From Luteibacter jiangsuensis (GTDB taxonomy: Bacteria > Pseudomonadota > Gammaproteobacteria > Xanthomonadales > Rhodanobacteraceae): DNA of 64,000 nt. Below, piece by piece: positions 4,170 to 14,799 of this stretch. A program made the translations under genes and the position numbers. The notes under the pieces are model-generated. The model searched no databases. It was given only the letters and a program-made list of their open reading frames with translations, and was not told the origin of the DNA. The stretch lies in contig NZ_JAAQQR010000006.1 of assembly GCF_011742555.1 (NCBI RefSeq), forward strand, positions 1 through 64,000, in the 5' to 3' direction. The stretch's first letter is position 1, and each line of letters starts with the position of its first letter.

Positions 4170-4752
4170 TGTCCCTCTCCACAAAATAGAAGTCCTGCAC
4201 AAGCTCTCCCCTCACCGGCCCATGGTGCAGCGCCCCCTGTCTCAGTATCCGGACGGTTCTCTCCTGACCGGACGTGCGGATTTTCGCCTCGTAGAGCTGC
4301 CATCCGAAGAGAAGAAGTAAAGGGTTCAACACTATCTGTCCGGAGCGGTAGGTGATGGCAAAAAGCCATGCGAGGAATACGGCAAAACCGGCGAGTTTCT
4401 GGTCCTCTCCGTACGACAAACCCATAAAGGAAACGACGTAGGGAAAAACATAGTTGATGAGGTCGTTGGGGACGGGTTTGGACTCAAGCACCTCAAGGGA
4501 ATAACGGAACCGGAGATGGCGCATGACCAAGGCGGAGAACAGAACGGCAAACATCGTCAGCCCGACCATCGACAAGGCAACGCCGGGATGAGCGAAGACA
4601 GAAAACGAACAACTTCCGATGCCGTGGGACCACGGGCGGCAGAACGACGTCTGCCAGACAGCCGGTTTGATATCCTGGACCAGAAGGACCAGTGACAACG
4701 GCAGGTATGAGCCGATGAAGATAACCAGGGCGGCGAGAAACCTGGGCTGCAT
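4153..4752 (-). CDS. kwaA: KwaA, Kiwa membrane component
   Basis: The 199-residue integral membrane protein has about four hydrophobic segments: residues 5-26, 55-75, 97-115 and a long one around 122-150. A hydrophilic C-terminal tail follows. Size, topology and the overlapping kwaB gene identify it as KwaA, the envelope-embedded part of the Kiwa defence complex that senses infection. Start ATG 4752 has the leader ACAGGGGAACAAAT. The gene sits between the ankyrin-like gene (84 bp upstream) and kwaB, all in one direction. Confidence 0.83.
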   Translation of the reverse strand: MQPRFLAALVIFIGSYLPLSLVLLVQDIKPAVWQTSFCRPWSHGIGSCSFSVFAHPGVALSMVGLTMFAVLFSALVMRHLRFRYSLEVLESKPVPNDLINYVFPYVVSFMGLSYGEDQKLAGFAVFLAWLFAITYRSGQIVLNPLLLLFGWQLYEAKIRTSGQERTVRILRQGALHHGPVRGELVQDFYFVERDNEGQV

Positions 4753-4836
4753 ATTTGTTCCCCTGTCATCCTTGCCGTCCCCCTGACGGCAAGGCAGCCG
4801 AATACCTTCTGGCTTTGCCGCAACAATACCACTGGC

Positions 4837-5220
4837 TTATGGCCCTGCGGCAGCCCCCGCAACCGCGTCTGCCCGTCTATGAGCAAGCGCCTCTCTTGAC
4901 CAGTTCGGCAACGCATCCCACTCCCACGTCTCCCACGAGGTTGTGTCAGACCATCGAGCAAGGAGTCGTAGACACCGGAGATGCCCGGGCTTGCGGCCCT
5001 TGGCTGCACGTTGAAGCGCCTCGGAACGGCGCGCATTGGGGTCACTGACCGGCAGGAGCAGCTCGACACACCGCAGATGGCCTCTATGCGCGGTATGGAG
5101 CAAGGCGGCGGAGTGTTGCCCCGCCGGGTCGACCTCCGGATGGTCGATGAGCGCGGCGACTGACAGGTGGTCGCCGTCCCAGGCAGCATCCTGGAGCTGA
5201 CGTTGAAGTTCATGATTCAT
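4837..5220 (-). CDS. Ankyrin-repeat-like protein
   Basis: The 127-residue protein begins MNHELQRQLQDAAWDGDHLS. The pattern of short helix pairs (L-x-x-AAWDGDHLSVAALI, then ALLHTAHRGHLRCVELLL, then ALQRAAKGRKPGHLRCLRLL) is that of three degenerate ankyrin repeats. The C-terminus is rich in Ala and Trp. ATG 5220 has a good AAGGAGG site. Ankyrin repeats mediate protein-protein contact. Its position 84 bp before kwaA in the same direction suggests it may be part of the same transcript, as an accessory of Kiwa or an independent cargo gene. No catalytic motif is seen. Confidence 0.65.
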   Translation of the reverse strand: MNHELQRQLQDAAWDGDHLSVAALIDHPEVDPAGQHSAALLHTAHRGHLRCVELLLPVSDPNARRSEALQRAAKGRKPGHLRCLRLLARWSDTTSWETWEWDALPNWSREALAHRRADAVAGAAAGP

Positions 5221-5488
5221 GGATTGGGCCTCCTTGCCCGAGTCGGTGCCGGGCAAAAAAGCCCCGCTGCGACATCCTGGACAACGATGTCCGGGAAGCC
5301 GGGGTGAGGAGCGCATCCCGAGGAAGGGCCCGGTGCCCAAGCGGGGGACGTATAAGCCGACGGCGGGGGGCGGTGGTGGGCAAGGTAGGAAAAACGAGGT
5401 CCAAGGTCATGACGGTGCCCTCTAATTGGGCCATCACAAGGAGTACCTGCGCTGGTAGGGTATCGCCGTATCCACGCAGGGATGACCC

Positions 5489-6574
5489 ATGACCGAACCG
5501 AAGGAACACCATTTCGTCCCCCAGTTCTACCTGAAGAAATTCGGCGAGGGAAAGTCTATCCGGCTCTTCAATTTCGAACGGCGGAGACACATCCCTGGAG
5601 CACCCATCAAAAGCCAGTGTGCGAGGCACAAGCTCCACGCCTTCAGTCCGGGGTTGGAGCAGAAGCTCTCTGTTCTCGAAGGGGCGGCGGCAAATGCCAT
5701 CCGCTCAATCCTGGACGAGGGGGCGGCGCCGGTGGCACGAAGTGAAACATGGCAGGATGCGCTAGGATTTCTGGTTCTCCAAAAGATGCGTACCGCCCGC
5801 TCGATGCAGTCAGTCGATACCCTCGCCGACTTCATGCTCGCTCATGCCCCTGAGCCCGGCGCGGCAGTCGAGGGACCTGACCGGGAACAACTGAAAGCGG
5901 CGATGGGCCATCCCTTGGCGCTTCTCTTCCAGTTTCTGGGAGAGGTGCTCGGCCATGCGACAGACCTCGGCATGCACCTCTTGGTCAACGGGACCACTGA
6001 AGGCTTCATCACCTGCGATGACCCCGTGGTATTCCATAACCAGTACTGCGAAGGGATTGACCATCATGGCGTCCTCGGCTGGCTCAACACCGGACTCCAA
6101 GCGTTCTTGCCGCTGTCTCCAAACGCAGTGTTGGTGCTCTACGACCAAACCGTCTACAAGGTTGCCGGTACCCGCCAGGGCTCAACGGCCTCGACGCTCA
6201 CGGATGTCCGCCACGTGCGGCAAATCAACGAACTCCAATTTCTCAATGCCGTGGAGAACGTCTACTACAAAGGCGAGCCAACAGAAGCCTTTCAGGGTAT
6301 TTGCGAAGCCATGGTCGGCAAGCGTGTCGGCGGACGGATAGCCCTTGTTGAAACAGAACCGGCAGCGCGGCCCGACGGAACAAGCTCCCAATTGCTCCAT
6401 ACCTTCGAACCACTCTTGCCGGTCAGGCTTTCGCTGCCCCAGATGGAAATCCGTCGCCGTGCCCGTCGTATCCCGCTTGAAGTCCGTGGACGGACATATA
6501 GGAACGGGACCGTAGCAGGGTCAGCACGGGGTCACGCGCAGACTTACCGGGTGCAGAACATCACCCACCGGTAA
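5489..6574 (+). CDS. DUF4238 domain-containing protein
   Basis: The 361-residue protein carries HHFVPQFYLKKF at residues 7-18, the hallmark of DUF4238. A helical middle follows, then a conserved block near residue 170 (GFITCDDPVVFHN) and a further conserved segment after LPLSPNAVLVLY. These proteins are widespread on mobile elements and in defence islands, with unknown biochemical activity. It is transcribed away from the ankyrin-kwaA-kwaB run; the 268-bp divergent gap should hold both promoters. The last 60 residues are basic and less conserved in character. Confidence 0.8.
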   Translation: MTEPKEHHFVPQFYLKKFGEGKSIRLFNFERRRHIPGAPIKSQCARHKLHAFSPGLEQKLSVLEGAAANAIRSILDEGAAPVARSETWQDALGFLVLQKMRTARSMQSVDTLADFMLAHAPEPGAAVEGPDREQLKAAMGHPLALLFQFLGEVLGHATDLGMHLLVNGTTEGFITCDDPVVFHNQYCEGIDHHGVLGWLNTGLQAFLPLSPNAVLVLYDQTVYKVAGTRQGSTASTLTDVRHVRQINELQFLNAVENVYYKGEPTEAFQGICEAMVGKRVGGRIALVETEPAARPDGTSSQLLHTFEPLLPVRLSLPQMEIRRRARRIPLEVRGRTYRNGTVAGSARGHAQTYRVQNITHR

Positions 6575-8564: not shown

Positions 8565-8665
8565 GGGCGCTCTGTGCGCGACGTGTTTTTGCGCCAGCCT
8601 TCAAACTGGCGCGCCAGCTCCGGGGCACGGCCTCAAAACATGTCGCGCGCAGGGCGCGCTCCTAC
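8565..8665. repeat. Family A palindromic repeat, copy A1
   Basis: The right end reads ACATGTCGCGCGCAGGGCGCGCTCCTAC. The left end (GGGCGCTCTGTGCGCGACG) is a worn version of its reverse complement. The middle contains an imperfect palindrome around GCGCCAGC...GCTGGCGC-like words and GGCACGGCCTC. The CTA of its terminal CTCCTAC (8662-8664) is the TAG stop codon of the adjacent minus-strand membrane protein gene. Confidence 0.85.
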
Positions 8666-9240
8666 GGAGAGCGGGGCGTTTGACGGCCAAGCCACCATCC
8701 CATGGCCGCGCCGGCCAGCAGCCAGCCGAACGCCTGCTCCACCAGATACCCTGCCGTGAAGGCGCCGGGGAAGCGGTACCAGTTCCAGAACGGCACGCTC
8801 AGGGCCAGCCAGGAGAACACGCCGAAGGCCAGGCCGATGCACAGGCCGCGTACCAGGCCGAGGCCCGCGGCGCGGACCAGCACCAGGGCGACGAGCAAGG
8901 CGGCCAGGGTGTCGGAGAGCCATTGGTGGAATAGATTGCCGCCCATCGCCAGCGGGTCCTTGCCGTTCGGGGTGTAGACGATGAAGGCGTATGGATTGGC
9001 CTTCGCCTTTTCCGAATAGGCTTTCATCGCCTGCTCGCTGCCGTGCATGGATGGATCGAAGTGCGGCAGCACGTAGATCCCGTGCTCGGGCGGCAGGCCT
9101 TCGCGCAGGGCGGCCAGCACGCTGTCCTCGTTCGTGGGTGCGCGCATGGACAGCTCGCCCAGCGGCAGCACCATGTGCGCGAACGCGCCCCAGAAGAACA
9201 TCACCAGACCACCGATGAGTGTCGCAATGGCGATACGCAT
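8662..9240 (-). CDS. Conserved-looking membrane protein, unknown
   Basis: The 192-residue protein has an N-terminal hydrophobic helix (residues 3-24), a soluble, presumably periplasmic region of about 80 residues, and three further hydrophobic segments (about 112-135, 137-155 and 165-183). A tail GRQTPRSP follows. No catalytic motif or family name is recognised. The stop codon is supplied by the end of repeat A1. It is the first gene after serS going toward the accessory cluster and may belong to the conserved backbone. Confidence 0.75.
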   Translation of the reverse strand: MRIAIATLIGGLVMFFWGAFAHMVLPLGELSMRAPTNEDSVLAALREGLPPEHGIYVLPHFDPSMHGSEQAMKAYSEKAKANPYAFIVYTPNGKDPLAMGGNLFHQWLSDTLAALLVALVLVRAAGLGLVRGLCIGLAFGVFSWLALSVPFWNWYRFPGAFTAGYLVEQAFGWLLAGAAMGWWLGRQTPRSP

Positions 9241-9318: not shown

Positions 9319-9648
9319 TCAGGAGGCCGACGGTTCTTCCTGCCCTTCGGGCGGGGCCGCTGCGCGCCGGCTGCGAGAGGTTTGCCAGATCCGGAACACC
9401 AGCAGCCCGCCCGTTCCGAAATTCGCCACCAGTTCACCGGGCCACACATGGCCGTAGTCGATGTTCTGGAAGCCGAAGATGGCGCCGAGCATGCCCGCCA
9501 CGTTCACCAGCGCACCGGCGGCCAGCAACGCATGGCAGGCGCGCATCAGGCGGTGGAAGCGGCGGTCGGTGAGCAACCAGACGGCGCTGATGGCCACCAC
9601 CACGTTGCACGCCAGATTGCTGTACAGATAGAACGCGCCATCATTCAT
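9319..9648 (-). CDS. Small holin-like membrane protein 2
   Basis: The 109-residue protein starts at ATG 9648, overlapping the stop of the upstream membrane gene by 4 bp (ATGA). It has three hydrophobic stretches (about 7-27, 39-60 and 70-88) and a charged C-terminal tail with RSRR and Glu residues. That is the size and layout of phage-type holins or small holin partners. There is no enzymatic motif. As the last gene of the muramidase/DUF2589 run it probably acts with its neighbour in the inner membrane. The holin call is inference from topology and context. Confidence 0.6.
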   Translation of the reverse strand: MNDGAFYLYSNLACNVVVAISAVWLLTDRRFHRLMRACHALLAAGALVNVAGMLGAIFGFQNIDYGHVWPGELVANFGTGGLLVFRIWQTSRSRRAAAPPEGQEEPSAS

Positions 9649-9974
9649 GGGCGATTTCCTCCGGTAAAACGATCGATCACACGGTTGGCCAGGGATTCGC
9701 CCTGCGTGTCGATGAGCCGCTGCACGATCATCGTCACCCGCAGGCCGAAGCAGCCGATGAGGAAGGAAACGCCGGCGTGTATTTCCGCCGGCGAGTCCGG
9801 AAGGAAGCGTTCTTCCAGCGCGGGCGCGAGGAAGATCGCCAGCATGGCGCCGCACACCACTTGCACCACGGCGCGCTTGCGCGAAGGCTCGTTGCCGAGC
9901 GCCACCGGAAGGATGGCGCCGCCGATTGCCGCCAGCAGTAGCCAGAAGCGGGTGAAGAGCAGCACGGTGTCCAT
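9645..9974 (-). CDS. Small holin-like membrane protein 1
   Basis: The 109-residue protein has three predicted membrane helices (about residues 5-28, 37-54 and 68-82), a short basic loop (EPSRKRAVVQ) and a hydrophilic tail. The pattern resembles putative three-helix phage holins that open the inner membrane for an endolysin. ATG 9974 is preferred over a frame extension to 10064, which is Arg/Pro-rich and lacks similarity. A GH108 muramidase in the same run (12639-13199) would be the matching cell-wall enzyme. Confidence 0.62.
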   Translation of the reverse strand: MDTVLLFTRFWLLLAAIGGAILPVALGNEPSRKRAVVQVVCGAMLAIFLAPALEERFLPDSPAEIHAGVSFLIGCFGLRVTMIVQRLIDTQGESLANRVIDRFTGGNRP

Positions 9975-9984
9975 GGCGGCGGCC

Positions 9985-10395
9985 TCAGGGGCTCGGCTTC
10001 GACGCGGGACGCAGCTTGCCGGCCCACTTGCCCTTGCCAATCGTGCCGTTGGTGGCAAACGCAATGGCGAGAACCTTGCCGTCGGCGTCCGGCGTGAGCA
10101 CGAAGGTCACATCCTCCAGGCCCTGGCAGAACATGCCGCCGCCGGACGAGGTGCCGAAGGTGTAGGCCAGACTGGACGCGTCGGCGCCGCGGACGATGGG
10201 CACACTGCAGCGGTACGGCGACCCGAAATGCACGCTCGAGTCGCTGAATCGAACTTCCGCGTCCACGGTGTTGAGGTTCTCGCGCTTGAGCGTGCCCGCC
10301 CAGACACCCTCCGGGTCCTTGGCGAAGGCCGCGGCAGGCAAAAGCAGGCAGATCAGGGCGGCGGCGCCCAGGGCCTTTAGGTTACGCGTATACAT
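9985..10395 (-). CDS. Small secreted protein, unknown
   Basis: The 136-residue protein begins MYTRNLKALGAAALICLLL with a typical Sec signal peptide cleaved after AFA (about residue 25). The mature part is about 110 residues, beta-rich in appearance, with two cysteines that could form a disulfide and a KGKWAGKLRPASK end. ATG 10395 is chosen because the upstream frame extension has no signal peptide character. It lies between the single-pass membrane gene and the holin-like genes, so it may be an envelope partner or an exported product of the cluster. Confidence 0.65.
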   Translation of the reverse strand: MYTRNLKALGAAALICLLLPAAAFAKDPEGVWAGTLKRENLNTVDAEVRFSDSSVHFGSPYRCSVPIVRGADASSLAYTFGTSSGGGMFCQGLEDVTFVLTPDADGKVLAIAFATNGTIGKGKWAGKLRPASKPSP

Positions 10396-10426
10396 GGTGG
10401 TCTCCCTTACGTTGTGGATGGCACGG

Positions 10427-10606
10427 CTACACCGGAAGGCGCAGCCACACCGCGATGCCGGCAAGGCCGGCGAAAACGAGAAGAAGCAGCACGAAGCCGA
10501 GAATCCACGGACGGAGGCGGCCCGGCCGTTTCGGCGGTTCGTCCAGACAGGCGATGAGCGCGCGCTCCCATTCCGGCGATACGCGCAGGCGCGACAGGCG
10601 TTCCAT
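10427..10606 (-). CDS. Small single-pass membrane protein (59 aa)
   Basis: The protein has a charged N-terminal half and one C-terminal hydrophobic helix (about residues 34-54, ILGFVLLLLVFAGLAGIAVW). ATG 10606 overlaps the TGA of the upstream gene (TGATG), the usual sign of translational coupling, and is preferred over an Arg-rich extension to 10669. Single-pass small proteins next to holins often act as antiholins or spanin-like partners, but nothing in the sequence proves that here. Confidence 0.55.
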   Translation of the reverse strand: MERLSRLRVSPEWERALIACLDEPPKRPGRLRPWILGFVLLLLVFAGLAGIAVWLRLPV

Positions 10607-11046
10607 CAGCCGTTCCCCGCCAAGGGCAACGGCACGACGCGCCCGTCGATCGATACGTCCGGCTGCCACGCGTCACTGGCGCGGAAGGCCACGCGCATGC
10701 GATGCAGCGCCCTCCTCCGGAACCACGTGCGGCGCGACGGCGACAGGTCGATCACGAGGCCGCCGGTGCCGGTGCTGCCGCGCTCGTAGCGCAGGCGGCA
10801 ATCGAATTCCACGGACAGCTCGGTCACCAGCGGCACGTGCGGATCGCGGAACCAGTTCAGCGGAATCACCACCGATTCCAGCGGTGCGTCGAAGGCGGAA
10901 TCGCGCGGCACATCCACGTGCAGGGCCCGATCGCCTGCGTCGCTCGCCGCGTAGTGCATGAGGCGGCGCCGGCGCAATGCCTCGTTGGCCGCCTCAACGG
11001 ACACGCGCAGCGCGTACAGCAACTGGTCGAAGGTGCAGGTCGCCAT
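10606..11046 (-). CDS. Unknown protein, possibly DUF2589-like
   Basis: The 146-residue protein starts MATCTFDQLLYALRVSVEAA. An N-terminal amphipathic helix is followed by a central beta segment. Its layout (two small residues and a proline, IPLNWFRDPHVPLVTELSVEFDCRL split over residues about 61-85) parallels the VPLLAIVKVPNLSVTKVDITFD core of the DUF2589 gene at 11383. I therefore suspect a diverged third member, though the identity is low. A GGAGG site lies at the stop of the upstream 86-residue gene, so the genes are coupled. Confidence 0.55.
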   Translation of the reverse strand: MATCTFDQLLYALRVSVEAANEALRRRRLMHYAASDAGDRALHVDVPRDSAFDAPLESVVIPLNWFRDPHVPLVTELSVEFDCRLRYERGSTGTGGLVIDLSPSRRTWFRRRALHRMRVAFRASDAWQPDVSIDGRVVPLPLAGNG

Positions 11047-11052
11047 GGCCGC

Positions 11053-11313
11053 CTAGCCCTCCGCCAGCCACACGGGCTTGCGCGGGAATCCCACGTGGTA
11101 GCAGAGCCACTGCATCACCACCTGGTGTTCGCCCAGCTGCAGCACGTTGAAGCACTTTTCGATACCGATGATGCAGCCCTTCGGCGTGTCGGTAAGGCAG
11201 CGATTGAGCAGCTTGCGCGCATCCTCGATCTGCGCCTCGCTGCTCATCTGGTTCGGGTTGTCGCTGCCGACCACCACGCGTTTCACGAATTTCACATCCG
11301 TCAGGTCGAACAT
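11053..11313 (-). CDS. Small unknown protein (86 aa)
   Basis: The protein begins MFDLTDVKFVKRVVVGSDNP, has no signal peptide or membrane helix and includes four cysteines (two near CLTDTPKGCI, one in EKCF and one in WLCYH). ATG 11313 is preceded by GGGAGAAGAGG. It sits between the large DUF2589 gene and the 146-residue gene in the same direction with 6 bp to the next start, so it is part of the run. I do not recognise the family. Confidence 0.6.
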   Translation of the reverse strand: MFDLTDVKFVKRVVVGSDNPNQMSSEAQIEDARKLLNRCLTDTPKGCIIGIEKCFNVLQLGEHQVVMQWLCYHVGFPRKPVWLAEG

Positions 11314-11382
11314 CCTCTTCTCCCGGAAAGAATCGCGACGGCCGGATGGACGCCGCGACAGGTGCGTGGAGCGAAGCGCGGA

Positions 11383-12048
11383 TTAACCGCCGTTACCGGC
11401 TCCGTTCGGGGGAGGCGGCGTATCTTCGGCCGGCACCGCCTTCGGCGGGCTGACCCGACGGGGTGCGCAGGCGGTCTGCAGGATGTCCATGACGCGGGCA
11501 AGGCCTTCCGGCATGCCGTTGTCCTCGGCGTGAACTTCCACGTGGTACTTGGCCGAGTTGTCGGACGTGCGCGTGTTTTCCTTGTGGGTCGCGACCGAAC
11601 CGGACACGTGCGCGGTGGCCTTGAAGATGCCCCAGCCGATGGACATCTCGGCACCGAATTCGCCCTTCTTGTCTTCGCTTTCCACTTGGCTGAAGGACGA
11701 CTTCACTTCCATGTCGAAGGTGATGTCCACCTTCGTGACGCTGAGATTGGGCACCTTCACGATGGCGAGCAGCGGCACTTCCAGTTCCACGTCTTCTTCC
11801 GCGATGCCACCGGCATTGGTGGGATCGTCGACGGGGCGCTTGAAGCGGAACTGCGCGGTACGGGTGGCACCCACACCGTTGGGATCGTTCGCGGCCGGCG
11901 GCATGAAGCCGATGACCTTGATGAAATCCGCGGTGGCCTGGGCCAGCTTCACCTGCGCTTCGCACGCGGCGGTGAGTGGCGAGCCGATCAGGTCGCCCAT
12001 GGGCAGACCCTTGAACTGGCTGGATAGATTGACGAGTTCGTCAGCCAT
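11383..12048 (-). CDS. DUF2589 domain-containing protein 1
   Basis: The 221-residue protein shows the full DUF2589 layout. An N-terminal helix ends in LIGSPLTAACEAQVKLAQAT. A central VPLLAIVKVPNLSV and KVDITFDMEVK beta core follows, then a segment with HKENTRTSDNSAKYHVEVHA and the C-terminal DNGMPEGLARVMDIL helix. A low-complexity Pro-rich tail ends the protein. The family has no known function and usually occurs as pairs of genes. ATG 12048 has an AAGGAG site and replaces a longer frame start at 12087. It follows DUF2589 protein 2 with a 68-bp gap. Confidence 0.85.
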   Translation of the reverse strand: MADELVNLSSQFKGLPMGDLIGSPLTAACEAQVKLAQATADFIKVIGFMPPAANDPNGVGATRTAQFRFKRPVDDPTNAGGIAEEDVELEVPLLAIVKVPNLSVTKVDITFDMEVKSSFSQVESEDKKGEFGAEMSIGWGIFKATAHVSGSVATHKENTRTSDNSAKYHVEVHAEDNGMPEGLARVMDILQTACAPRRVSPPKAVPAEDTPPPPNGAGNGG

Positions 12049-12116
12049 GATGTGACTCCTTGCGATGTTTGACGCGACTTGCGACATGCACGCCGCGGTT
12101 CAGTGCGGTCGACCCC

Positions 12117-12635
12117 TCAGTCGCCCGGTGTGAACGTCTTGAAGACCCCTTGCGTCTGCGCAAGGTGGTTCATGAGGCGGGTGGCGCCGTCGGTGGGCTC
12201 ACTCCCTTCCACGCGCAGCACCACGTGCACGTTGCCGGTGCGGCGGTCCTTCCCGCCCGCGCTGGGGTCCACGCTCAGGTGCGGACGCGCGGCGGGTGGC
12301 TTGCCCTTCCAGTTGGGATCGATGTGCTCCTCGGCGGGCACCTCGCCTTCCACCAGCGGGCCAATGTCCGCGTCGAAGGTGATCTCCACGTCCTTGATGC
12401 GCAGCACGTTGGTCGATACCAGGGGCAGCAATGGCGCGCGGTAGAGGTCTTCGTCGGCCTCCCCCGCCTTGGGGTGCAGCGAAGGCATGCGGATCACCAC
12501 GCTCTTCGGCCGGTTGTCCTCGTCGAAGAAATCGCTCAAGCGAGACATCTGGTGCTGCTCGATGCGATCCTGGGCATCCACCACGGCGCCTGCGATGGCT
12601 TCGATCAGGGTGTTGAGTGAGGTCTGCGCGGCCAT
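12117..12635 (-). CDS. DUF2589 domain-containing protein 2
   Basis: The 172-residue protein opens MAAQTSLNTLIEAIAGAVVDAQ and carries the DUF2589-type core LLPLVSTNVLRIKDVEITFDAD near residues 68-90. A variable insert rich in Pro and Gly follows, then a second beta segment (TGNVHVVLRVEGSEPTDG) and a C-terminal helix. It is shorter than its neighbour and lacks the NTRTSDNSAKY motif, so the two may form unlike partners in one assembly. GGGAGG precedes the start, and the muramidase gene ends only 3 bp upstream of it. Confidence 0.75.
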   Translation of the reverse strand: MAAQTSLNTLIEAIAGAVVDAQDRIEQHQMSRLSDFFDEDNRPKSVVIRMPSLHPKAGEADEDLYRAPLLPLVSTNVLRIKDVEITFDADIGPLVEGEVPAEEHIDPNWKGKPPAARPHLSVDPSAGGKDRRTGNVHVVLRVEGSEPTDGATRLMNHLAQTQGVFKTFTPGD

Positions 12636-12638
12636 GGG

Positions 12639-13199
12639 TCACGCGCCTCCCTTCGGTGCGGACACGGTGTCCGGAAAGGAATCCACCCGCGCGAGCCAGC
12701 CCTTCAGGAACTTGCCCAGCGGTGGGCGCTGTGCCACGAGGTTGTTGTAGTAGTCCTTCCGGCCCTGCTTATAGGCGCTGTACAACTTCTGCGGATCGGC
12801 ACTGGCGACGGCCGCGAGTGTGCCGGGCCCGATGGCGCCGTCTACCGCGATCTGCGGTTTCGCGCCCAGGCTGTTGAGTACGCGTTGCAGCAGGCGCGAG
12901 GCATTGGCGCCCGCATTCACCTGGAAATCGAACACGATGTTCGCAAGTTCCTGCGGCTCCAACTTGTCGCCGCACACCTTGTCCCAGTAGAGCGCCTTAT
13001 AGATGGTGCCGGCCTGCGCGTCGGTGAGGTTGCGCAGGTTGTCGAGCGTGGGCGCGATGCCCAGCAGGCTTTGCGCGCACTGCTTGAACGTGGCAAGCGT
13101 CACGCCCTTGTTGGTCGCGCCACCGGGATCGACGGGGTCGTTGACGAAACCACCTTCGTGCTTGAGCAGTGTGGGAAAGAAGCTGTTGAAGTCGGCCAT
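12639..13199 (-). CDS. GH108 family muramidase with peptidoglycan-binding domain
   Basis: The 186-residue enzyme belongs to the phage-type lysozyme family GH108, which cuts the MurNAc-GlcNAc bond. The motif LLKHEGGFVNDPVDPGG at residues 10-26 contains the catalytic Glu in HEGG. The NKGVT and YWDKVCGDKL segments follow. The C-terminal part (DGAIGPGTLAAV to YYNNLV) matches the small peptidoglycan-binding domain. There is no signal peptide, so it needs a holin or another route to reach the wall. ATG 13199 has an AGGAG site. It heads the DUF2589 run and could be its endolysin. Confidence 0.88.
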   Translation of the reverse strand: MADFNSFFPTLLKHEGGFVNDPVDPGGATNKGVTLATFKQCAQSLLGIAPTLDNLRNLTDAQAGTIYKALYWDKVCGDKLEPQELANIVFDFQVNAGANASRLLQRVLNSLGAKPQIAVDGAIGPGTLAAVASADPQKLYSAYKQGRKDYYNNLVAQRPPLGKFLKGWLARVDSFPDTVSAPKGGA

Positions 13200-13344
13200 T
13201 GCGGTGCACTCCTGGTTCGGCGCGGTGGCGCCGGCCGGTGTACTTTCCGCTTGTTGCTGAGTTCGGAAGATCGGTGAAATGCTGATTAGGTTGCTTTGGC
13301 TTGCTGATTGGTAACGAGGTTTCCCGCGTGCCACAAAAGAGCCT

Positions 13345-13430
13345 CGTCATTCCCGCGAAGGCGGGAATCCAGTGACTCACGGCCGCGGTGGGGAACGAGG
13401 CACTGGATCCCTGCTTTCGCAGGGATGACG
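13345..13430. repeat. Family C palindromic repeat
   Basis: An 86-bp element starts CGTCATTCCCGCGAAGGCGG and ends with CTTTCGCAGGGATGACG. The outer 6 bp and the inner GGGAATCCAGTG/CACTGGATCCC words are inverted copies of each other. It lies between the response regulator and the muramidase gene. This word type is common in intergenic DNA of many proteobacteria. Only one copy is seen in the window. Confidence 0.8.
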
Positions 13431-13442
13431 TCGCGCTACGCG

Positions 13443-14096
13443 TCAGGGTTCCAGCGTCGTCAGGCCTTCACGCAGGGCGTAGCGCGTGAGTTGGGCGATA
13501 CCGCTGATGCCCAGCTTCGCCATGATGTGTTCCCGGTGCGTGCCCACCGTCTTCACGCTCACGTGCAGGCGTTCCGCAATATCCCGTGCACTCAAGCCTT
13601 CGGCGAACAGCTGGGTGACTTCCCGCTCCCGGGCGCTCAAGGCTTCACCTTGCGCGAACGCCGGCCCGTCGTTGCGACGCAGCCCGCCCACCAGGAGATG
13701 GGCGATGTCGGGGCTTATGAAGTAGCGTGAGCGCATCACGGCCTCAATGGCCTCGTTGAGCACGCCGAAGCCGTCGCGCTTCAGCACATAGGCATGTGCG
13801 CCGGCGTCGAAGGCCGCCTTCACCCAGCGCGCGTCTTCGTAAGCGGAGAGGCACAACAACCGTGTATGCGGACATCGCGGCGCGATGCGGCGGATGGCCT
13901 CGAGGCCGCTCAGGCCGCGCATGGCACAGTCGAACACGATAAGCCCCGGCTGGCAGCGCAGTGCACTGCGCACACAATCGCGTCCGTCGGCCGTGCTGCC
14001 GATCACTTCATAGCGTCCCGAGCCTGCCAGCAGCGAGGCCACGCCTTCGCGCAACAAGGCCTGTTCGTCGGCCAGAAGGACGGTCACCCGCATCAT
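13443..14096 (-). CDS. NarL/FixJ-type response regulator
   Basis: The 217-residue protein has a receiver domain (about residues 4-118) and a LuxR-type HTH (about 150-210). The receiver shows an acidic pocket near LLADE, the phospho-acceptor Asp in GLIVFDCAMRG and a conserved Lys in LKRDG. The HTH contains LSAREREVTQLFAEGLSARD and VKTVGTHREHIMAKLG. No histidine kinase lies next to it. The nearest candidate, on the other strand, is the one-piece sensor at 20498-23500. Its place beside the muramidase/DUF2589 run suggests it may control that run. Confidence 0.88.
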   Translation of the reverse strand: MMRVTVLLADEQALLREGVASLLAGSGRYEVIGSTADGRDCVRSALRCQPGLIVFDCAMRGLSGLEAIRRIAPRCPHTRLLCLSAYEDARWVKAAFDAGAHAYVLKRDGFGVLNEAIEAVMRSRYFISPDIAHLLVGGLRRNDGPAFAQGEALSAREREVTQLFAEGLSARDIAERLHVSVKTVGTHREHIMAKLGISGIAQLTRYALREGLTTLEP

Positions 14097-14277: not shown

Positions 14278-14799
14278 TCAGAGGTTCCCGATGCCCTGGG
14301 TAATCTCGTCCACGTCGTCCTGCTTCCTGTATTCCCTCCACAGGGGGCTGGGATTGTTCGAGGGATTGATCCCGGTGATGCCGTGATCGCCCCCGGTAAA
14401 TCCGTACCCTTGGCCCACCTCGTCGAAGGTGAGGACACGGGTCGTGGCCAGCACCGCGGCACCGGTCGCATTGGCGAGCCGCTGTGCCGGAGACCAAAGC
14501 TCGTTGTGATCGCTGAGCGTGCCGCCGGTCTTCGTTGCGCCGCTGTGGCAGTTGGCCAGGATCACGAAATGGATACCGAGGCTGGTGACGCAACCGGCCA
14601 GGGCTTTCAGTGTGTCCTTTGCCTCGATCTCGTCGCGGTGCCCGACGACGATGAGCATGCCGAAATCCTTGGACGTCTCGCCGCCCAGCGCGGCGCCGTC
14701 TACACAGTGGGAAACGGGCTCGTAAAGCTTGTGCAGTTTCCTCGCTTCACGTTCGCCGTCGGCCGAACCGTGGGGCCAGGTAATCAGTGTCTTTGACAT
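14278..14799 (-). CDS. Caspase/C80-like His-Cys dyad protein
   Basis: The 173-residue protein has two beta-strand ends bearing VVGHRDE (His54) and ILANCHSG (Cys84). These are spaced and embedded like the catalytic dyad of clan CD cysteine peptidases (caspase, C80, CHAT). A LSDHNELWSPAQRLA stretch follows and may form the specificity region. No signal peptide is present. GAGGAGGAG precedes ATG 14799. It could be a self-processing or effector protease of the neighbouring cluster. The fold assignment rests on motif spacing alone and needs a structure comparison. Confidence 0.55.
   Translation of the reverse strand: MSKTLITWPHGSADGEREARKLHKLYEPVSHCVDGAALGGETSKDFGMLIVVGHRDEIEAKDTLKALAGCVTSLGIHFVILANCHSGATKTGGTLSDHNELWSPAQRLANATGAAVLATTRVLTFDEVGQGYGFTGGDHGITGINPSNNPSPLWREYRKQDDVDEITQGIGNL

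Follow-up and report, generated by a model that had tools for sequence, protein, structure and literature searches.

The described systems closest to the locus presented here are phage lysis cassettes, whose holin/endolysin arrangement is also carried by tailocins and gene transfer agents (GTAs), and type 10 secretion. In the portions of the published accounts that we consulted, the Salmonella chitinase operon holds holin, leaderless hydrolase, regulator and cargo together (PMC13284979), no holin is identified for TtsA, YenLC lies apart from its toxin genes, and the lytic nature of type 10 release is disputed (PMC13284979, PMC10847048). We analyzed a 64,000-nucleotide stretch of Luteibacter jiangsuensis (contig NZ_JAAQQR010000006.1, positions 1 to 64,000; hereafter, the window), in which a minus-strand unit of ten genes joins a GH108 muramidase and a holin-family protein to proteins of the DUF2589 family. 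An original prediction, made from the nucleotide sequence alone, had described nine of these genes as a candidate lysis or secretion system; this observation was confirmed and its interpretation was partly supported. DUF2589 (PF11655) has, to our knowledge, no known function, and the present analysis gives it a testable role. Literature searches returned no paper tying DUF2589 to lysins and one paper that names the family, the consulted part of which reports AF0414-AF0417 as up-regulated during growth with lactate (PMC3949148). We propose, with middling confidence, that the unit may be a phage-type lysis module through which, much as type 10 secretion works, an assembly of DUF2589 proteins is released or deployed.

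The genes are, in order of transcription, a response regulator (RR), GH108, DUF2589-A, DUF2589-B, p4, p5, p6, p7, p8 and p9. Across 117 loci scored by gene label, DUF2589-B occurred in 117, DUF2589-A in 112 and p4 in 106, followed by p7 (65), the RR family (61), GH108 (49), p5 (41) and GH19 (18); the gene caller behind these counts and the locus maps misses some genes, and both this set and the set of 96 loci used below hold repeated genomes (L126/L171, whose contigs have the same length; several of L063-L138 repeat L036-L060). The DUF2589 pair together with p4 is the usual core. A search for conserved order in other genomes had been suggested as a check, and cassette gene order is kept across the genus and in other genomes; the genes did not prove to be unrelated.

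Beside this steady core, the wall hydrolase is exchanged. Eight Pfam hydrolase families were found next to it: GH108, GH19, GH24, PF11860, CHAP, Amidase_3, pesticin, and VgrG3-C with LysM. Since we take GH19, GH24, GH108 and pesticin to form one lysozyme superfamily, with CHAP, Amidase_3 and the endopeptidase outside it, the eight families do not mean eight folds. Proteins with PG_binding_1, whose C-terminal part was not identified, also lie beside the core, and the neighbor protein in L173 matched solved structures of L-Ala-D-Glu endopeptidases (E 4.5e-5 and 1.2e-4). Some of the hydrolases are encoded on the opposite strand, namely GH24 (L109, L115, L120), GH108 (L111), pesticin (L168) and VgrG3-C (L128). 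With an inner zone defined as -3 to +4 kb of DUF2589-B and 15 seed sequences, a hydrolase-type match was present in the inner zone of 68 of 96 loci; eight of the 68 count through PG_binding_1-type or L134-type seeds, and L140 through one weak match (96 bits). When these two seed types, for which the catalytic part was not identified, were excluded, the count was 60 of 96. The inner zones held 69 matches in 643 kb in comparison to 2 in 823 kb outside, a contrast inflated to an unknown degree because all 15 seeds come from inner positions.

A quick tree was built from 58 DUF2589-B sequences; support was weak for 22 of its 55 inner branches, and L173 and L140 bore the label for no hydrolase, their hydrolases having been noticed later. 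On it, 12 changes were needed among ten hydrolase labels, the minimum possible being 9. The labels were strongly clustered, as inheritance with occasional exchange predicts. A phylum sample of 398 genomes, not picked by gene context, contained DUF2589 in nine, own genome included; when this genome was set aside, a hydrolase lay beside DUF2589 in six of eight (five by Pfam, one by the endopeptidase structure match), and none was seen there in L169 and L171. In two genomes of the collection (G226, G219) the only GH19 gene adjoins DUF2589, and in G389 one of four GH24 matches does. No N-terminal hydrophobic segment was detected in any of 77 called GH108, GH19, PG_binding_1-type and VgrG3-type genes, nor in nine others. 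The exchange of hydrolases beside a steady DUF2589 core strengthens the tie between lysin and DUF2589, and if the wall-cutter serves the core, one would expect the core to stay constant while the wall-cutter can be swapped. Such swapping implies that wall cutting is part of the job of the system.

The muramidase of the window scored 90.9 bits against the GH108 model (Pfam cut-off 21.2). It matched the endolysin family phrog_315 in PHROGs (3.2e-42) and, in the PDB, 2nr7 (1.1e-25), 7dnp (6.3e-18) and the Sen1395 structures 6v40/6v3z (2.4e-9/4.6e-9). By a simple hydrophobicity test it has no N-terminal hydrophobic segment or signal peptide, in agreement with the earlier description. It carries the motif EGGF. 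Of the 50 called GH108 genes, 48 had an EGG motif, presumably holding the catalytic Glu; one gene in L053 and one apparently miscalled frame in L067 did not. Family cut-off and EGG motif together point to a putative GH108 muramidase. A second GH108 gene lies beyond p9 in L053 (genome G009, 4605-5150); the L053 gene lacking the EGG motif seems to be this second copy, which would then encode a likely inactive enzyme. The NCBIfam model NF040573, a holin-associated N-acetylmuramidase, aligned with the window protein over most of the length of the model (E 7.2e-35); membership was rejected at 120.6 bits, under the cut-off of 240.

To reach the wall, a hydrolase without a leader depends on a holin, on lysis or on some other route. 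The candidate holin in the window is p8, whose holin family was also recognized in the second copy of this genome (1.5e-11). The frames of p8 and p9 overlap by 4 bases (9645-9648), and p9 matched no holin family in Pfam or PHROGs; of the two overlapping holin-like proteins first described, only p8 is thus of a holin family, and p9 is a membrane protein whose frame overlaps it. A different family with three transmembrane (TM) segments occurs in 15 loci, including Xanthomonas and Azospirillum, and has no function assigned; in the loci other than those with p8 and p9, either that protein or no holin-type candidate was recognized.

Taken together, gene content suggests the following course. The response regulator would turn the operon on, and DUF2589-A, DUF2589-B and p4, which have no visible export signal, would probably assemble in the cytoplasm. 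Through p6, p5 may anchor part of the DUF2589 assembly at the inner membrane, and p7 would be exported. With p9, p8 could give the leaderless muramidase access to the wall, and a local or whole-cell opening of the wall would then allow release or deployment of the assembly, of which the DUF2589 proteins may be the cargo. Gene order, conservation, family membership and the exchange of hydrolases are results of the analysis; assembly, secretion and lysis are inferences.

Several observations weigh against this proposal. The inner zone of 28 of the 96 loci lacked a hydrolase match, although several of these are cut by contig ends, L086 has a GH24 gene at 5.06 kb, and L173 has the endopeptidase match. 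Five of 26 same-genus cassettes have no GH108, and in four of the five the gene is missing from the whole genome. In Sphingomonas-type cassettes an astacin-like protease takes the place of a hydrolase (above the Pfam cut-off in L133, below it in L131), the GH19 protein of L129 has an internal hydrophobic stretch, and no peptidoglycan-binding protein is annotated near the DUF2589 match of Vibrio sp. 16, where annotation is incomplete. The 36 loci (of 117) with a recognized p8 all belong to Xanthomonadales, as do the 36 with p9, which limits the holin-plus-muramidase logic of type 10 secretion even as hydrolase exchange strengthens its lysin side; spanin families were absent among the Pfam and PHROGs matches of p5-p9. 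Structure prediction, another suggested check, gave a poor AlphaFold2 model of DUF2589-B (predicted local distance difference test, pLDDT, 67.8; predicted template modeling score, pTM, 0.45). Finally, seven further loci from IMG/VR have DUF2589 pairs and no inner-zone hydrolase match, and the cassette of another IMG/VR record, L143, lies ~0.8 kb from a virus-like element.

These last two findings, along with the membership of p8 and most checked hydrolases in phage lysis families, would also suit a decayed prophage, or a lysis cassette captured from a phage and not specially linked to DUF2589. The L143 record (19.9 kb) holds GH108, DUF2589-A, DUF2589-B and p4 at one end; among their neighbors are a repressor-like gene, a phage replication protein matching 324 phage records and a packaging-type ATPase resembling that of Vibrio phage NO16 (E 4e-18), and one more gene gave no noteworthy match to phage records or PDB entries. 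However, this cassette stands at a contig end, so that it may lie either within the element or next to it, and the virus proteins of L143 were not found in the other collected loci beyond one weak match. Moreover, DUF2589 matched no PHROG, and DUF2589-B matched 1 of 50,697 phage records. The cassette of the window lies between rarA and serS at a site unoccupied in relatives, its genes are under purifying selection, and different hydrolases recur beside the same core. PHROGs searches with nine cassette proteins and the gene at 8662-9240 brought no phage structural gene beside the window cassette to notice. Phage genes beside the cassette in close relatives, which were to refute the earlier reading, were not seen, the flanks in the window being rarA and serS; the distant L143 does have virus-like neighbors. 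On this balance, we regard a prophage origin of this sort as very improbable. The virus-like element (L143, 1-6541, and L186) also contains small membrane proteins that resemble those of a filamentous phage by eye, and the rest of the L143 record looks virus-like by eye only. The IMG/VR contigs L144-L150 (28-201 kb) carry DUF2589 pairs with p4 not recognized nearby, and a 526-aa neighbor in L150 matched no phage record.

The DUF2589 proteins scored 94.8 (A) and 168 bits (B) against PF11655, above the curated cut-off of 23 bits, as had been predicted for both. For p5, no Pfam match was obtained, and its kinship rests on profile comparison: its profile matched that of DUF2589-A with a probability of 98.2% (E 2.8e-14), and two control profiles reached only 0.2% and 0.6%. 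The small Cys-containing protein of the earlier description is p4, in which C39 is nearly invariant (alignment of 51 sequences; that of DUF2589-B had 57), the DUF2589-like protein is p5, the single-pass membrane protein is p6, and the secreted protein is p7. In L086, L104, L118 and L124, p5 bears a C-terminal TM helix, which makes it tail-anchored, so the p5 and p6 of the window correspond to one protein there. Compared with five relatives, the ratio of nonsynonymous to synonymous substitution rates (dN/dS) was 0-0.27 for RR, GH108, DUF2589-A, DUF2589-B, p4 and p8, 0.11-0.45 for p5, 0.22-0.35 for p6 and 0.09-0.49 for p9. For p7, which was matched in four of the five, it was 0.09-0.91.

The anchored p5, the three DUF2589-type proteins in a single operon, and the N-terminal hydrophobic segment found in 31 of 65 called p7 proteins would also suit a standing envelope machine, with p5/p6 at the inner membrane and p7 outside it, where the hydrolase merely gaps the wall locally for assembly and nothing is released or lysed. 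We think this unlikely, given that the checked hydrolases belong mostly to endolysin families and have no export segment, that p8 is of a holin family, and that some cassettes with the DUF2589 pair and p4 had no p5, p6 or p7 found.

The properties of p7 also bear on antagonism or self-lysis, in which the hydrolase would be an effector carried or controlled by DUF2589, and exported partners such as p7 would protect the producer. MliC-type lysozyme inhibitors are eight-stranded barrels, and p7 is predicted to be a small barrel with two invariant Cys, fast-evolving in three of four comparisons. A gene of the LprI lysozyme-inhibitor family lies between p7 and GH108 in the Desulforhopalus cassette (L127, 3439-3843), and one exchanged enzyme belongs to the pesticin family. 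On the other hand, p7 goes with hydrolases of different kinds, and the Burkholderiales loci with GH19 showed no p7. In the place of the hydrolase, the only other toxin class recognized was the Sphingomonas-type protease. A known anti-phage defense system was considered and rejected, PADLOC giving no match for ten proteins, eight of them from the cassette (E 0.1). Antagonism is, in our judgment, somewhat less probable again than a standing machine.

The release or deployment proposal is favored by the pairing and gene order seen in this genome. It has four DUF2589 matches forming two pairs, and two GH108 genes, one per pair. Gene order is the same in the second cassette (L005), where identity to the first is 56-71% for RR, GH108, DUF2589-A, DUF2589-B and p4 and 28-48% for p5, p7, p8 and p9, and p6 has no match. 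Within the genus, 20 of 23 genomes have DUF2589, and six of these gave four matches; other genomes of the family had it in 1 case among 14 and those of the order in 1 among 24, and its wider occurrence is patchy. In eleven other genus genomes, GH108 matched eight times: six matches fall at the cassette position, another lies past p9 in G009 (L053), and the last is in G012, a genome without DUF2589; six of the eleven had no GH108. On Vibrio plasmids, an annotated DUF2589 gene adjoins the DUF2589-B match, and in the V. tubiashii plasmid a peptidoglycan-binding protein lies near DUF2589 on the opposite strand. The Vibrio sp. 16 plasmid (L184) has its DUF2589 gene a few kb from an AbiEi/AbiEii toxin-antitoxin pair.

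According to the open reading frame calls, the unit runs on the minus strand from 14096 to 9319, all ten genes being open frames (Table 1). The nine genes originally listed over 9319..13199 stood in the order given, and the unit begins further upstream, at RR. From GH108 onward the intergenic gaps are at most 69 bases; RR and GH108 are 243 bases apart. A repetitive extragenic palindrome (REP)-like element lies in this spacing (13320-13442); its core pattern has 13 occurrences in the genome (at most 2 mismatches) against 0 for the reversed control, and it folds better than shuffles (z -3.0).

Table 1. Genes of the DUF2589 cassette in the window, in order of transcription
Feature	Coordinates	Strand	Evidence
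RR, LuxR/NarL-type response regulator	13443..14096	-	PF00072 9.1e-17, PF00196 4.1e-17
GH108 muramidase with PG_binding_3 domain (putative)	12639..13199	-	PF05838 7.4e-26, PF09374 3e-18
DUF2589-A, 172 aa	12117..12635	-	PF11655 8.5e-27
DUF2589-B, 221 aa	11383..12048	-	PF11655 2.6e-49
p4, 86 aa, conserved, no Pfam family	11053..11313	-	106/117 loci; alignment
p5, third DUF2589-like protein	10606..11046	-	hhalign vs DUF2589-A profile
p6, 59 aa, one TM	10427..10606	-	hydropathy
p7, predicted exported eight-stranded beta-barrel, two invariant Cys	9985..10395	-	
p8, three-TM holin-family protein	9645..9974	-	phrog_2359 3.2e-12
p9, membrane protein, possible p8 partner	9319..9648	-	overlaps p8; no holin-family match

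All 26 same-genus cassettes, the two of this genome among them, have RR alongside; no sensor gene was seen next to it, and it probably regulates the cassette. Regulators vary among loci and include LuxR-type response regulators, AraC-type and GerE. Upstream of RR, a 173-aa gene of no known family (14278-14799) had no match in five compared cassettes; relatives with 42% and 67% identity adjoin the cassettes of L046 and L055.

The window cassette is flanked by a rarA-type gene upstream and serS downstream. None of seven rarA stretches from relatives, three of them from same-genus genomes without DUF2589 (G012, G015, G020), contained a GH108 or DUF2589-B match. A homolog of the gene at 8662-9240 lies between rarA and serS in six of the seven, with G025 as the exception; its presence at cassette-free sites indicates that this gene is part of the site and not of the cassette. 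The cassettes of L041 and L053 are on the opposite side of it. In L181 (G021, 5439-6080), where no cassette is present, rarA and the serS-side gene enclose a solitary response regulator with 87% similarity to the cassette RR, a possible relic of a lost copy.

A bolder possibility, which we put forward only tentatively and hold as less probable than the type 10-like proposal, is that DUF2589-A, DUF2589-B and p4 would form the core of an undescribed assembly in several phyla, which would exit or breach the cell by recruiting any phage-type wall hydrolase available; it would then be a lysin-coupled machine of a new class and not mere type 10 cargo. If DUF2589 is released, holin/lysin-dependent export, so far studied in few pathogens, would reach environmental Xanthomonadales, Burkholderiales, Desulfobacterota-type lineages and an acidobacterium; if it is not, the cassette points to a new envelope machine.

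In comparison with known systems, the cassette shares holin-family and endolysin-family genes with phage lysis cassettes and differs in that no head or tail genes were seen beside it in the window, its partners being DUF2589 proteins. The endolysin of L124 matched the NCBIfam model for Bartonella-type GTA endolysins with 148.9 bits, below the cut-off of 315. With type 10 secretion (Serratia chiWXYZ, the Salmonella chitinase operon and TtsA, Yersinia entomophaga YenLC) it has in common a holin-family protein and a leaderless peptidoglycan hydrolase outside a prophage, with a regulator adjoining. The window has each of these features, with a predicted enzyme lacking a signal sequence by the simple test, a co-encoded p8, and a location outside a prophage that is less clear for L143; Sen1395, the relative of its GH108, is one that we take to belong with TtsA. 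Spanins, in the consulted portions of the accounts, are present in Serratia and Yersinia and not in Salmonella, and none was recognized among the matches of p5-p9. The cassette differs from type 10 secretion in its DUF2589 pair and p4, which stay steady while the hydrolase changes.

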